Source of the DNA: Bacillota bacterium
Lineage (GTDB): Bacteria > Bacillota > Limnochordia > Darwinibacteriales > Darwinibacteriaceae
NCBI GenBank assembly: GCA_012521335.1
Contig: JAAYMM010000029.1
Location: 1-51,106, forward strand
Length of the DNA: 51,106 bases
Direction of reading: 5' to 3'
The position numbers and the translations under genes are program-made. Of this stretch, positions 2 to 4,192 are shown piece after piece. Each line of letters begins with the position of its first letter. Position 1 is the first letter of the stretch. The notes under the pieces were generated by a model, which saw only the letters and a list, made by a program, of their open reading frames with translations, made no database searches and was not told the origin of the DNA.

Positions 2-322
2 GAGGCTCTGAAGCAGGCTGAGGCCGCTCCGGCTGTGGAGCCCTTTGCCATCGCAGTTGCAGACGGAGTGCACCGGGGCAGTGCTCAAGGCTTCGGCGGC
101 GAGTTGGTCTTGGACGTGACCGTTGAGGGCGGCAGGATCATTGCCATCGAGGTGGTAGAGTCCAACGATACGCCTTTCATCGCTGAAACGGCGTTCAAGA
201 CGCTGATCCCTGCCATAATTGAAGCACAAGGTCCCGTTGATGCGGTGAGCGGTGCCACTTTCACCAGCAGGGCGGTGGAGGCGGCGGTACGCGACGCCCT
301 GAGCATAAAGGAGGGCCAATAG
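2..322 (+). CDS. FMN-binding domain protein, RnfG-like, 5' end cut off by window
   Basis: The reading frame is open from base 2, so the N-terminus lies outside the window. An Ala/Pro-rich linker leads into a complete small FMN-binding domain (PF04205 type) with a GFGGEL start and a DAVSGAT motif near bases 239-259. DxxSGAT is the signature where the ApbE transferase attaches FMN to the Thr (codon at 257-259). It sits one base upstream of the rnfE-like gene, so by position it plays the RnfG role of passing electrons through a covalently bound flavin on the outer membrane face. The domain lacks the roughly 40-residue insertion that canonical RnfG has between its ETPGLG region and the TGAT motif, so it may be a stand-alone or tandem FMN-domain protein. 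The family is sure; calling it RnfG is inference from context. Confidence 0.8.
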   Translation, partial: EALKQAEAAPAVEPFAIAVADGVHRGSAQGFGGELVLDVTVEGGRIIAIEVVESNDTPFIAETAFKTLIPAIIEAQGPVDAVSGATFTSRAVEAAVRDALSIKEGQ

Positions 323-323
323 G

Positions 324-911
324 ATGAAACAGTTTTGGGAAGGTGTTTTCACTAAGAATCCGGTCTTTGTTCTGGCTCTCGGGCTGGTTCCTGCGGTGGC
401 GGTGACCACCACCGCCCTGAGCGGCCTGGCCCTGGGCCTGATCACAGCCATCATCATGGTTGTGGCTGCGGTGATCGACTGGCTGCTCGTTTCCCATGTG
501 CCAGACAACGCCAAGCTGCCCGTACGGGTGCTGGTGCTCATCCTGCTGGTGGTGGGTGCTTACAGCCTGCTGCTGAGGGAGAATCCCGGCTTAGTAGCCA
601 GCCTCGGCATTTTCCTGCCGCTCGTGGCTTTCAATGATCTGCTGCTGCAGCCAAAGGACGAGGAGGGCAGCCTGGCCCACATTCTCCTGGGCACCTGCGG
701 TCGCGGCCTGGGCTTCGCCTTGGCCCTCGTGATCCTGGGGATCATCAGGGAGTTCTTAGGTATGGGCTCCGTATTCGGCCAGCAGATCGTAACCGGCCGT
801 CTCGCACCGCTGTCACTAGCCGGCAGTGTGCCGGGGGGCCTGGTTATCGTGGGCCTGCTCATGGCGGTAGTCAACGTAGCAACGAAGCGGGGAGGCGAAC
901 TCCATGACTAA
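324..911 (+). CDS. rnfE: RnfE-like electron transport complex membrane subunit
   Basis: This 195-residue protein has about six membrane helices. The N-terminal NPVFVLALGLVP and VTTTALSGLALGL segments and the later GIFLPL and IREFLGMGS segments match RnfE/NqrD. In known complexes this subunit pairs with RnfA around a two-fold axis, and together they hold an intramembrane [2Fe-2S] cluster that carries electrons across the membrane. Two cysteines per subunit bind that cluster. Here the LGLCP position is LGLVP (Val22) and the NC position is ND (Asp105), so both ligands are missing. The only Cys is in LLGTCGRG, elsewhere. The start ATG follows a GGAGGG-like site and the end overlaps the next gene by 8 bases, so the two are probably translated together. 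The family is clear; electron-transfer competence is doubtful. Confidence 0.85.
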   Translation: MKQFWEGVFTKNPVFVLALGLVPAVAVTTTALSGLALGLITAIIMVVAAVIDWLLVSHVPDNAKLPVRVLVLILLVVGAYSLLLRENPGLVASLGIFLPLVAFNDLLLQPKDEEGSLAHILLGTCGRGLGFALALVILGIIREFLGMGSVFGQQIVTGRLAPLSLAGSVPGGLVIVGLLMAVVNVATKRGGELHD

Positions 912-1437
912 CGGATTGGAAATCTTGGCACAGGCCGTGGTTACTGGGAACTTGATCTTGGTGCACGGGTTGGGGCTGTTTGTCCTCACCCGCTATACGA
1001 AAAATGTGCGCGAGGCTGCCAGCGCCGGTCTCACGGTAGCCGTGGGCATGCTGGTGGGCGCCATCCTCCTTTGGCTGTGCGGTTCTATCATTCCTGCGGC
1101 ACCGGTTCCGCAGGTGGGGTTCTACCTGCTGGTGGCTTTGGCGGCGAGCTGTCTGACTTCTGCCCTGCTCAAGCAGGACGTAACCATAGAGCGCCGGTCG
1201 GTGGACAGCGCCATCGTGGGCCTGCTGCTCCTCATGGGGCGCAGCGGAGTAACGGGGGTGCACAACGTGTGGATGGCTCTGGCCGCCGGTGTGGGCTATC
1301 TGCTGGTTCTGGTGGTTATGGCCACCATCCGCAGGCGTCTGGAGCTGGCACCTGTGCCCAGGCCTCTGCAGGGGCTGCCCATACTGCTTATCACGGCCGG
1401 ACTGCTGGCCATGGCCCTGTTAGGATTCAGATTCTAG
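904..1437 (+). CDS. rnfA: RnfA-like electron transport complex membrane subunit
   Basis: This 177-residue, roughly six-helix membrane protein aligns by eye with RnfA/NqrE. The N-terminal N-x3-x-x-x-LGL segment lines up without gaps, and the C-terminus PRPLQGLPILLITAGLLAMALLGF matches the family's ending. The cluster-binding Cys of canonical ILGICPFLG is Phe26, and the Cys of canonical TTNCAVLG is Ser102 in SVDSAIVG. Cys59 and Cys83 are at non-canonical places. In Clostridia rnfB normally follows rnfA, but here a strong terminator follows directly. The protein is more divergent from RnfA than its neighbour is from RnfE. The family assignment is good from both ends and from its position; function as a redox-active pair is uncertain. 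Confidence 0.78.
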   Translation: MTNGLEILAQAVVTGNLILVHGLGLFVLTRYTKNVREAASAGLTVAVGMLVGAILLWLCGSIIPAAPVPQVGFYLLVALAASCLTSALLKQDVTIERRSVDSAIVGLLLLMGRSGVTGVHNVWMALAAGVGYLLVLVVMATIRRRLELAPVPRPLQGLPILLITAGLLAMALLGFRF

Positions 1438-1444
1438 CTACCCA

Positions 1445-1481
1445 GCGTCTCGGGACGGTTTATGTCCCGAGGCGCTTTTTT
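1445..1481 (+). terminator. Rho-independent terminator after the rnf-like operon
   Basis: A 12-bp stem (GCGTCTCGGGAC pairing with GTCCCGAGGCGC, one G-T wobble) with a short loop is followed by six T. It closes the rnf-like operon and isolates it from comEA. Confidence 0.92.
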
Positions 1482-1563
1482 GGGAAAATATATCTGAAAA
1501 AAGAGGTGTTTTGGCATATGTGTGGAAAGTAATAGTGCCCGGGGAGCAGAAAGGGAGATTGCT

Positions 1564-1926
1564 GTGCCCACGAAGCAACGGGTTGTGCTGGTCGTACTCG
1601 TCGTGCTTAGCCTTCTGCAGCAGGGGGTGCGCTGGAAGCTGAGCAGCCGGGAACCGGTGGTGGTCCAGGCTGCGGAGGCTGTTTCTGTAGAACAGGTGGA
1701 CAGGCACTGCCCTCTGGTGCATGTGAACACCGCCGGCATGGCTGAACTGCAGACTCTGCCCGGCATAGGTCCAGTGATTGCGGAGCGCATTATCCTGGAG
1801 CGGAAGGAGCAGCCCTTCCAGGAGAAGCTGGATCTTCTGCGTGTTCCGGGGATAGGAGAAAAACGCTTGGCCCAGATCGCCGACCTGATCTGCCTGTACT
1901 TCGAAGAAGATGCGCCGGCCCAGTAG
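1564..1926 (+). CDS. comEA: ComEA-like competence protein, helix-hairpin-helix DNA binding
   Basis: ComEA is the membrane-anchored receptor that binds incoming double-stranded DNA during natural transformation. The 120-residue protein has one N-terminal membrane segment (about residues 6-20) and a C-terminal double helix-hairpin-helix with LPGIGPVIAERI and VPGIGEKRLAQIA hairpins. It lacks the longer SLBB region seen before the HhH pair in B. subtilis ComEA, so it is a short form. I chose GTG 1564 because AAGGGAG lies seven bases upstream; an in-frame GTG at 1522 would add 14 residues but lacks such a site. It overlaps comEC by 17 bases. Confidence 0.88.
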   Translation: MPTKQRVVLVVLVVLSLLQQGVRWKLSSREPVVVQAAEAVSVEQVDRHCPLVHVNTAGMAELQTLPGIGPVIAERIILERKEQPFQEKLDLLRVPGIGEKRLAQIADLICLYFEEDAPAQ

Positions 1927-4192
1927 TCTTGTGCTGCTCTTTCCCTGTCTGGCTCTGGGAATCCGCCTAGGCTCCCAGAGCCTCCTCAGCCCTGGGCTCT
2001 TTGGCGCGCTGTTCTGCCTGGCGGCGGCCCTCTGGCTGGCGGCAGCGTATAGAGGTTGGGCCGCGCAGGCTTGGCTGTTTCCCTGTGTCCTCTGCCTAGG
2101 TGTGCTGCTCCTGGGCCAGTTGGCCGTCCTGCCTGAACAGCTTTGGGAGGAGCCCCAAGAAGGAAGCTTCCGGGGGCGGGTCTATGCTGTGCAGCCGTTG
2201 AGTTTTGATCAGCGTATCTTGGTGTGTTTGCAGTCGCCGGCGGCCCGCGTAGCGGTGCATCTGTCCCTGGATGTGCCCGTGCAAGTTGGCGATGAGCTGT
2301 TCTTTCGGGGCACCATCGCGCAGCCCAGCCCGGCACCTAACCCCGGCGTGTTCTGCTACCGGGACTACCTGCGCCGCCAAGGAGTGTTCGGGGTAAGCTA
2401 CCCTGAAGAGGTGGAGGTGGTGCGCCGGGCCAAACCGGGCTTGTGGGCCAGGGCGCGGGAGCTGCTGCGGAGGAATCTCACCGCCCACGTGCGCGATCCC
2501 GGGCTGGTTTTAGCTCTGGTTTTGGGAGAACGGGAGCAGTTGGGGACAGAGCGGAAGGAGACCTGGCGGCTGCTCGGCATCGGGCACCTCCTGGCTATTT
2601 CCGGGATGCACGTTGGCTATGTGGCGTTCGGTTTTACCCTGCTGGTGCAGAGACTGCCCTGGCGTCTCTGGGTGAAGTATCTTGTTGTCCAAACAGGGCT
2701 GCTCCTGTATATCCTGCTTTCTGGCTCCGGGGCGTCGGCTTGGCGGGCACTGGTCGTGAGCGCATTGGGGGGCTATGCGGGCCTGAGGGGACTGCGCCGC
2801 GACGGGCTGCATCTGTGGGCTGCCGCCGGATGGATTCTGCTCCTGAACCGGCCTTCCTGGGCCTTTGATCTGGGCTTTATCCTATCCTTTGCCGCCTCGG
2901 GAGGCATTTTGCTCTGGTCGCCAACCCTGAACATTAGGTGGCGCAGCAGAGTGCTCACATACCTGGCCCAGGGACTGCTCTTTTCACTGATCGCCCAGCT
3001 CAGCTTAGCGCCTTTTCTCCTGGCCAGCTTCGGGGAGATGGCTCTGCTGGGCCCTTTGGCCACACTGCTGTTTCTGCCCTGTGTGGCGGTTTTGCTTGGC
3101 GGCGGTCTGCTTACCGCGGTGGGACTGGGCCCCTTGGGCATCGGGCGTCTGCTCAACTTGGTTATGCAGGTAGTGGGGGCTTTAGAAAGGCTCCTGCTGC
3201 CTTTTGCCTGGCAGTGGCGGCTGGGATCAGTGAGCTTGAGAGAAGTCGTGGTCTGGTGGGCTTTGTTTGTCTATGCGGGCTGGCGCCTGCGGCTGCCGCG
3301 TCTTACGGCACCCAGGCGTACGGCTGGGAGGCTCCTGAGCATCTTTGTGGTGCTGGTCTTCGTCAGCTCCCTACCGCCTGCTGTGCGCCGGCCTCTGGAA
3401 GTGACCGCACTCAATGTGGGCCAGGGAGACAGCTATTATCTGCGCACCCCCAGCGGACGCAGCGTGCTCATCGATGGGGGCGGCGATCTGGTCCCCTGGC
3501 AGCCAGGGAGGAGGGATGCGGGCCGGGAGCGGGTTGTCCCCTACCTGCGCCACAGGCAGGTGCAGCGGTTGGATTATGTGATCCTTTCCCATGCCCACGA
3601 TGACCACCTGGCAGGGCTCTTGGCCGTACTGGAAGAGTTTCCAGTGGGGATGGTGCTGGACAGCGGCCTGGAGCAGGCTAGCCCAACGTACGAGCGCTTC
3701 CTGGAGCTGATCGCGGAAAAAGGAATCCCTTACCGCACCGTGCGGGCCGGGGACCGGGTGCTGTTGGGGGACGGGGTTACCCTTACTGTCCTCTATCCAC
3801 AGGAGCTGCGGCCGCACCTGCCTTCCCCCCAGAACAACAACTCTCTGCTGCTGCGTGTGGACTATGGCGGAGTCGGCCTGCTTTTCACCGGTGACCTGGA
3901 AGCTCCTGTGTTGTACGATCTGGCCCATGACCCCAGGATCGATCTGCGGGCCCAGTGGCTGAAGGTGCCTCACCACGGGAGTAGAGGCAGCCTCGTGGAG
4001 GAGTTCTACGCGGCTGTAGATCCCCTGTGGGCAGTGATTTCCGTGGGGCCCAACCCCTTCGGCCATCCCCACCAGGAGGTGCTGGATGTGCTCAACCGAC
4101 GCCAGGTGATCTGGCGCACCACCTCAAAAGGCCCGCAAACTTTTGAGGTGTGGTGGGGGATCTGGGGCAGGTTTAGGCGTACCCCATCGTGA
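1910..4192 (+). CDS. comEC: DNA internalization-related competence protein ComEC/Rec2
   Basis: This 760-residue polytopic protein forms the channel for single-stranded DNA during transformation. It has the expected three parts: an N-terminal DUF4131 OB-like region (about residues 1-190), a Competence domain of many helices (about 200-480, with the family's LLAISGMHVGYV segment) and a C-terminal metallo-beta-lactamase domain (about 495-755). That last domain shows LNVGQGDSYYL, HAHDDH (near residue 561), TGDLE and PHHGS, the metal ligands expected of a nuclease that degrades the non-transported strand. All three parts are present and the gene looks intact. Translation is probably coupled to comEA through the overlap. 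Confidence 0.95.
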   Translation: MRRPSSLVLLFPCLALGIRLGSQSLLSPGLFGALFCLAAALWLAAAYRGWAAQAWLFPCVLCLGVLLLGQLAVLPEQLWEEPQEGSFRGRVYAVQPLSFDQRILVCLQSPAARVAVHLSLDVPVQVGDELFFRGTIAQPSPAPNPGVFCYRDYLRRQGVFGVSYPEEVEVVRRAKPGLWARARELLRRNLTAHVRDPGLVLALVLGEREQLGTERKETWRLLGIGHLLAISGMHVGYVAFGFTLLVQRLPWRLWVKYLVVQTGLLLYILLSGSGASAWRALVVSALGGYAGLRGLRRDGLHLWAAAGWILLLNRPSWAFDLGFILSFAASGGILLWSPTLNIRWRSRVLTYLAQGLLFSLIAQLSLAPFLLASFGEMALLGPLATLLFLPCVAVLLGGGLLTAVGLGPLGIGRLLNLVMQVVGALERLLLPFAWQWRLGSVSLREVVVWWALFVYAGWRLRLPRLTAPRRTAGRLLSIFVVLVFVSSLPPAVRRPLEVTALNVGQGDSYYLRTPSGRSVLIDGGGDLVPWQPGRRDAGRERVVPYLRHRQVQRLDYVILSHAHDDHLAGLLAVLEEFPVGMVLDSGLEQASPTYERFLELIAEKGIPYRTVRAGDRVLLGDGVTLTVLYPQELRPHLPSPQNNNSLLLRVDYGGVGLLFTGDLEAPVLYDLAHDPRIDLRAQWLKVPHHGSRGSLVEEFYAAVDPLWAVISVGPNPFGHPHQEVLDVLNRRQVIWRTTSKGPQTFEVWWGIWGRFRRTPS

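Follow-up and report, generated by a model that had tools for sequence, protein, structure and literature searches.

An Rnf-derived operon of one bacterial order (class Limnochordia) encoding RnfE- and RnfA-type subunits without the four cysteines of the intramembrane [2Fe-2S] cluster

In the canonical Rnf complex, electrons pass from ferredoxin via RnfB, the AE1 cluster, the FMN of RnfG, the FMN and riboflavin of RnfD, and RnfC to NAD+ (PMC11889175). AE1 is an intramembrane [2Fe-2S] cluster, the ligands of which are C25 and C108 of RnfE together with C25 and C113 of RnfA (A. woodii numbering), and AE1 Cys mutants of the A. woodii Rnf exhibited no Fd:NAD+ activity (PMC11889175). Canonical RnfA is characterized by broken half-helices at TM1 and TM4 (PMC12174285). 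The coupling mechanism of Rnf and Nqr is disputed, a channel in RnfD/NqrB being set against an RnfA/E path gated by AE1. For clusters with multi-flavinylated RnfG a ‘bifurcated’ RNF model was proposed (PMC8238504, Fig. 6H), in a survey which called a cluster RNF only with RnfB present (PMC8238504), and for two-subunit Nqr/Rnf-like systems a one-way flow from NAD(P)H through an RnfD-like protein to an extracytosolic FMN_bind domain was put forward (PMC8238504, PMC11334425).

The DNA analyzed here, a stretch of 51,106 nucleotides (the window), opens contig C33 of a Bacillota genome (G000; 1.72 Mb, 93 contigs) and carries an RnfE/RnfA-type pair devoid of all four cluster cysteines. These Cys-less subunits are referred to below as variant RnfE and variant RnfA, and together as the variant pair.

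Gene order and genomic setting

Table 1. Features of the operon and its downstream neighbours. Positions without a locus name refer to the window; the cut-off for PF02508 is 23.8 bits.
Feature	Position	Strand	Basis
rnfC, upstream of rnfD::rnfG in the same genome	L034:5466-6800 (contig C59)		
Rest of the rnfD::rnfG gene, same genome	L034:6812-8704 (contig C59)		synteny
rnfD::rnfG fusion, 3' end	2..322	+	last FMN_bind domain; PF04205, 60.6 bits; synteny with L042 and L044
Variant rnfE (RnfE/NqrD-type membrane subunit, both cluster Cys replaced)	324..911	+	195 aa; PF02508, 100 bits; column counts; model closest to RnfE chains
Variant rnfA (RnfA/NqrE-type membrane subunit, both cluster Cys replaced)	904..1437	+	177 aa; PF02508, 58 bits; column counts; model
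Intrinsic terminator	1445..1481	+	directly 3' of rnfA; 13-bp G+C-rich hairpin and T6; -29.9 kcal/mol, z -5.96
comEA and comEC	1522..4192	+	HHH protein domain match; same order in relatives; comEC named from sequence and position

The window opens within the rnfD::rnfG fusion, the last domain of which contains the predicted FMN-carrying Thr in the motif SGATFTS (codon 257-259). The rnfC and rnfD genes, which the earlier note proposed to look for upstream, were located on another contig of the same genome, the latter gene as part of the fusion; that contig stops within the FMN repeats, and its join to the window is based on synteny (gene order as in G018) and not on sequence. Both variant ORFs are intact, the start of rnfA overlapping the stop of rnfE by 8 nt. 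The terminator lies at the operon end, right after rnfA, so no rnfB follows downstream, and the conserved neighbours comEA and comEC are outside the system and mark its syntenic position.

The order rnfC - rnfD::rnfG(FMN)n - rnfE - rnfA - terminator is conserved across five families, and in relatives with contiguous assemblies rnfC and the fusion gene invariably lie upstream of the variant pair. In the fusion, RnfD (PF03116) is joined to an RnfG-type FMN domain and mostly also to further tandem FMN_bind domains (up to five extra), with up to six SGAT-type motifs. Nearly all intact copies possess two to six PF04205 domains or [ST]GA[ST] motifs and thereby qualify as multi-flavinylated, flavinylation being predicted. 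These domain counts are minima, as the repeats of the fusion break many contigs. Contigs break within these repeats or shortly before rnfE at the end of L034 (G000:C59), at the window start and in L039, L041, L043, L046 and L049; the true number of FMN domains is thus hidden in short-read assemblies. The fusion point holds an RnfG-like membrane helix, and the ten membrane helices of RnfD (PMC11889175) would place the FMN domains outside the membrane by topology, suggesting an extracytosolic location.

Searches of the operon revealed neither rnfB, since TIGR01944 exceeded its cut-off only at a separate canonical rnfCDGEAB-apbE locus, nor an NqrF-like gene, nor a PF00175 NAD-binding domain on the PF03116 protein, which bears FMN_bind domains instead. 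A canonical rnfCDGEAB set is likewise present in most genomes of the order. Family searches found no canonical rnf, rnfB or apbE in the window’s genome. The trmL-like and trxB-like genes, which flank the canonical locus in G018 (G018:C14 = L117:2410-9806), have no orthologue-level match in G000 either. True loss is disfavoured by the absence of these flanking genes as well, and an assembly gap is the probable cause.

Cluster cysteines and the clade lacking them

The products were aligned to solved structures, the nearest chains being 7zc6_E and 9eri_E for variant RnfE, and 9eri_A and 7zc6_A for variant RnfA. In this alignment V22 (gtt, 387-389) and D105 (gat, 636-638) of RnfE correspond to the cluster ligands C25 and C108 of 9eri_E, while F26 (ttt, 979-981) and S102 (agc, 1207-1209) of RnfA correspond to C25 and C113 of 9eri_A. 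The replacement of all four cluster Cys, reported in the earlier note, is confirmed by the structure alignment and by column counts; the gap-free alignment which it described around these sites holds for RnfA only locally, because roughly twelve residues are missing between the two positions. Canonical copies possess Cys at the E sites in 34/34 and 34/34 sequences and at the A sites in 34/34 (three partial rows are gapped) and 37/37, and Cys is kept in all phylum-wide loci checked (26 RnfA and 25 RnfE). For the window’s clade the respective counts are 0/30 and 0/30, 0/29 and 0/29, i.e., 0/59 members overall.

What stands in place of the cysteines differs from site to site: Val in 26, Ala in three and Met in one of the 30 sequences at E22; Gly (10), Ala (8), Asp (4), Ser (4), Glu (2), Thr (1) and Arg (1) at E105; Tyr in 27 of 29 at A26, the window being among the two with Phe; and Ser (20), Thr (8) and Gly (1) at A102. 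Neither a conserved replacement ligand nor a conserved Cys was found among the 30 RnfE and 29 RnfA variants aligned. Shifted Cys ligands were ruled out, as neither RnfA C83 nor any other Cys is conserved across the clade; 19/30 variant RnfE and 14/29 variant RnfA contain no Cys at all. A cluster ligated by Asp and Ser (D105, S102) was rejected as well, given that position 105 is Gly or Ala in 18/30 and Asp in only four, and no ligand set emerges. Sequencing error, the other circumstance under which the earlier note would have failed, is eliminated, because about 30 assemblies agree in lacking these Cys. Judged by sequence, the variant pair cannot hold a Cys-ligated [2Fe-2S] cluster. It might hold another redox centre (heme, flavin, quinone, or Tyr/Trp hopping through Tyr26 of RnfA), so that electrons would still cross the membrane there, and the nearly uniform Tyr at A26 and Ser/Thr at A102 (28/29) accord with this idea. 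We regard it as highly improbable, considering the variability of E105, the V/A/M set at E22, the lack of a conserved ligand set, and an operon without rnfB to feed the pair.

The 30 variant RnfE and 29 variant RnfA are distributed over five families within a single order (class Limnochordia), the genomes sampled being mostly metagenome assemblies, and often share the genome with canonical Rnf/Nqr copies possessing all four Cys. A PF02508 search in 37 genomes of the order revealed canonical high-scoring pairs and, in most genomes, a second low-scoring pair; a profile (A1) representing the RnfA of this second pair gave 184-266 bits in 29/37 genomes, again from five families. In profile searches confined to one phylum, nothing exceeded about 110 bits beyond the order (36 other genomes of the class; about 390 outside-order genomes of a 398-genome phylum sample), those of the weaker matches that were checked being canonical, and only close relatives came up when 84,980 species genomes were scanned with a pattern. 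The order also contains a third PF02508 system, an NqrBCDEF-type cluster with NqrF, no adjacent NqrA seen, beside a rubrerythrin-like gene (L113:3172-8086, L114:3233-8139); the NqrD-like protein of this cluster falls together with the NqrD of V. cholerae. In family f2, the genomes G001, G002 and G003 encode further RnfD/NqrB-like PF03116 proteins in addition to the canonical, fused and Nqr ones (e.g., G001:C38:3286-4122 and G001:C325:13517-14431).

Phylogenetically, variant RnfE forms one clade (SH-aLRT 100), the Cys-less clade that the earlier note proposed to look for, on a long branch from canonical RnfE and NqrD; the RnfD parts of the fusion also form one clade (SH-aLRT 99). Within a genus, pN/pS amounts to 0.26-0.36 for variant RnfE and 0.22-0.39 for variant RnfA, compared with 0.08-0.17 for canonical RnfE and 0.10-0.19 for the operon’s RnfC. 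The variant pair is under purifying selection, yet less constrained than its operon neighbours. A decaying or mis-sequenced Rnf duplicate could account for the faster evolution of variant RnfE and for the long stem branch; its probability is close to nil, as it is already refuted by conservation: intact frames, the recurrence of the Cys-less state, the conserved operon and synteny across five families, pN/pS well below 1, and 23 (RnfA) and 27 (RnfE) positions invariant in the clade. The earlier note’s denial of decay is thereby upheld, and its view of one functional change in both subunits gains support from the single clade, the conserved operon and the pN/pS values.

Retained and lost parts and their possible function

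The upstream part of the operon is that of Rnf. Its RnfC scores 510 bits with TIGR01945 (cut-off 246), matches RnfC and not NqrA (510 vs 55 bits), and, aligned to 7zc6_C and 9eri_C, keeps the NADH/FMN region and the two [4Fe-4S] motifs by which an Rnf-type RnfC is recognized. RnfD scores 245 bits (cut-off 207) and retains the flavinylated Thr ([ST]xATPL) in 28/28 sequences; the own-genome copy also preserves the equivalents (vs 9eri_D) of N123 and D249, the roles of which as riboflavin ligands are described in PMC11889175. The RnfG part, with its TGATISS/SGAT motif, reaches 103.9 bits with TIGR01947 (cut-off 102) in the own-genome fusion and 100 in the L037 copy. The family scores of the variant subunits fall below the cut-offs (RnfE 90 of 213, RnfA 66 of 229), and the identity between canonical and clade sequences is 47.0% for RnfC, 47.5% for RnfD, 32.8% for RnfE and 28.1% for RnfA. 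Among the near-invariant canonical columns, RnfE keeps 32 of 95 and has lost 31, and RnfA keeps 23 of 104 and has lost 59, so the earlier note is only in part correct in stating that the other family motifs have been retained.

Variant RnfA has lost the ion-pair E88, the gate L108, T111 and the helix-breaking P26 and P107, and its model (pLDDT 75), best matched by RnfA with weak E-values, shows continuous TM1 and TM4. Variant RnfE retains the half-helix prolines in 30/30, the gate Leu in 24/30 and a basic residue (Arg/Lys) at position R67 in 20/30 sequences, and RnfE remains the best match of its model (pLDDT 64). The equivalents of the RnfB-contact residues K32, R154 and E158 of A. woodii RnfA (K33, R143 and E147 in the window) are largely kept in the clade despite the rnfB-less operon.

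With moderate confidence, we consider the variant pair to be part of an Rnf-derived paralogous complex which lacks the ferredoxin-input half and keeps the NAD(H)-flavin half. In such a complex NADH would reduce the RnfC FMN, from which electrons would proceed through the two [4Fe-4S] clusters to the riboflavin and covalent FMN of RnfD, cross the membrane to the RnfG FMN, and enter the chain of further covalent FMN domains outside; this outer arm would pass them to extracytosolic acceptors. The variant pair would serve as a non-redox scaffold for RnfD/RnfG, with neither electron transfer nor a cluster-gated Na+ stroke. The net route, from NADH to the outside, would replace the U-shaped ferredoxin to NAD+ loop, and one-way NADH-to-exterior electron transfer, with no ion-pumping loop-back, appears to be the most likely mode of operation. 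A one-way conduit is the simplest reading, as the features of the ferredoxin - RnfB - AE1 branch are lost, and the RnfC/RnfD/RnfG half is kept and extended outward. The missing replacement ligands, the lost gating residues and the lost helix-breaking prolines of RnfA point to a scaffold and not to a new carrier. Flavin-linked export of electrons, one of the options raised by the earlier note, is thus the best fit for the whole operon and not for the pair itself.

Several facts count against the one-way conduit. Retention of the variant pair under purifying selection is only partly explained by a pure scaffold, variant RnfA keeps most of the RnfB-contact equivalents, no ApbE match was found in the window’s genome (probably due to the assembly gap), and the operon contains no acceptor gene. 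As for the order as a whole, its candidate acceptors comprise a protein with FMN_bind and a fumarate-reductase-like FAD_binding_2 domain, and small proteins bearing two or three FMN_bind domains (L182:2647-4404, L186:2456-3079, L187:2775-3716); none is linked to the operon.

The constrained retention of the pair, together with the preserved prolines, gate Leu and basic residue of variant RnfE, would also suit an ion-translocating or gating module which carries no electrons and still moves Na+ or H+ through conformational changes of RnfG/RnfD, in other words a cluster-free redox pump. Such a module seems rather unlikely in view of the residues and both helix-breaking prolines missing from variant RnfA, and of the published model that ties Na+ binding to the reduction of AE1 (PMC11889175), which is absent here. 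That this pump would be driven by RnfD/RnfG flavin chemistry and RnfG motion, making NADH oxidation by an external acceptor energy-conserving, we judge quite unlikely. Alternatively, the variants may be alternative subunits which associate with the cell's canonical Rnf and use the RnfB of that complex, yielding a regulatory or uncoupling version of it, as the canonical rnfCDGEAB in most genomes of the order and the retained RnfB contacts of RnfA would allow; this we hold to be very unlikely, because in contiguous loci the pair is always accompanied by its own rnfC and rnfD::rnfG, and because RnfB would have no acceptor in a pair without AE1.

Under the favoured one-way reading, the operon points to a new flavin route by which NADH electrons would reach the cell exterior in a class of Bacillota with few cultured members. 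With regard to the disputed coupling mechanism, a natural and conserved Rnf without the cluster or RnfB, in which the RnfA gate is eroded and the RnfC-RnfD-RnfG wire is intact, amounts to a separation-of-function experiment performed by evolution; from it follows a prediction as to which half of Rnf carries the ion stroke, and it offers a modular view of Rnf evolution.

Relation to described systems

Like canonical Rnf (RnfABCDGE; A. woodii 9eri, C. tetanomorphum 7zc6), the system has homologues of RnfC, RnfD and RnfG in which the residues for flavins, NADH and [4Fe-4S] clusters are preserved, and RnfA/E homologues of the same fold class. It differs in the absence of RnfB and of the AE1 Cys, in the fusion of RnfD with RnfG and extra FMN domains, and in the loss of the gating and ion-pair residues of RnfA. 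Lacking two defining features of Rnf (RnfB and the AE1 Cys), it is, as far as sequence tells, best kept apart from Rnf complexes as defined by function. Na+-NQR (V. cholerae 7xk3, 8a1t) has homologous D/E, B and C subunits, whereas here NqrF is absent, the FeS-bearing RnfC replaces NqrA, and the NqrDE cluster Cys are missing.

In the multi-flavinylated RnfG clusters (PMC8238504), tandem FMN_bind domains on RnfG form a branch to external acceptors, as they would here; in contrast to the ‘bifurcated’ RNF, both RnfB and the A/E cluster are gone, and the FMN branch would be the sole path and not a second one. The two-subunit Nqr/Rnf-like systems share the proposed one-way outward electron flow. 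In those, the RnfD/NqrB-like protein is fused to PF00175, lacks the flavinylated Thr of RnfD and has no A, C or E partners, whereas in our system RnfC is the NADH module, the RnfD Thr is kept and A/E persist. No published RnfB-less and AE1-less Rnf retaining A and E was found in the openly licensed literature. Multi-flavinylated RnfG and one-way two-subunit systems have already been published; a cluster-less, RnfB-less Rnf that keeps A and E is, in our assessment, a new variant.
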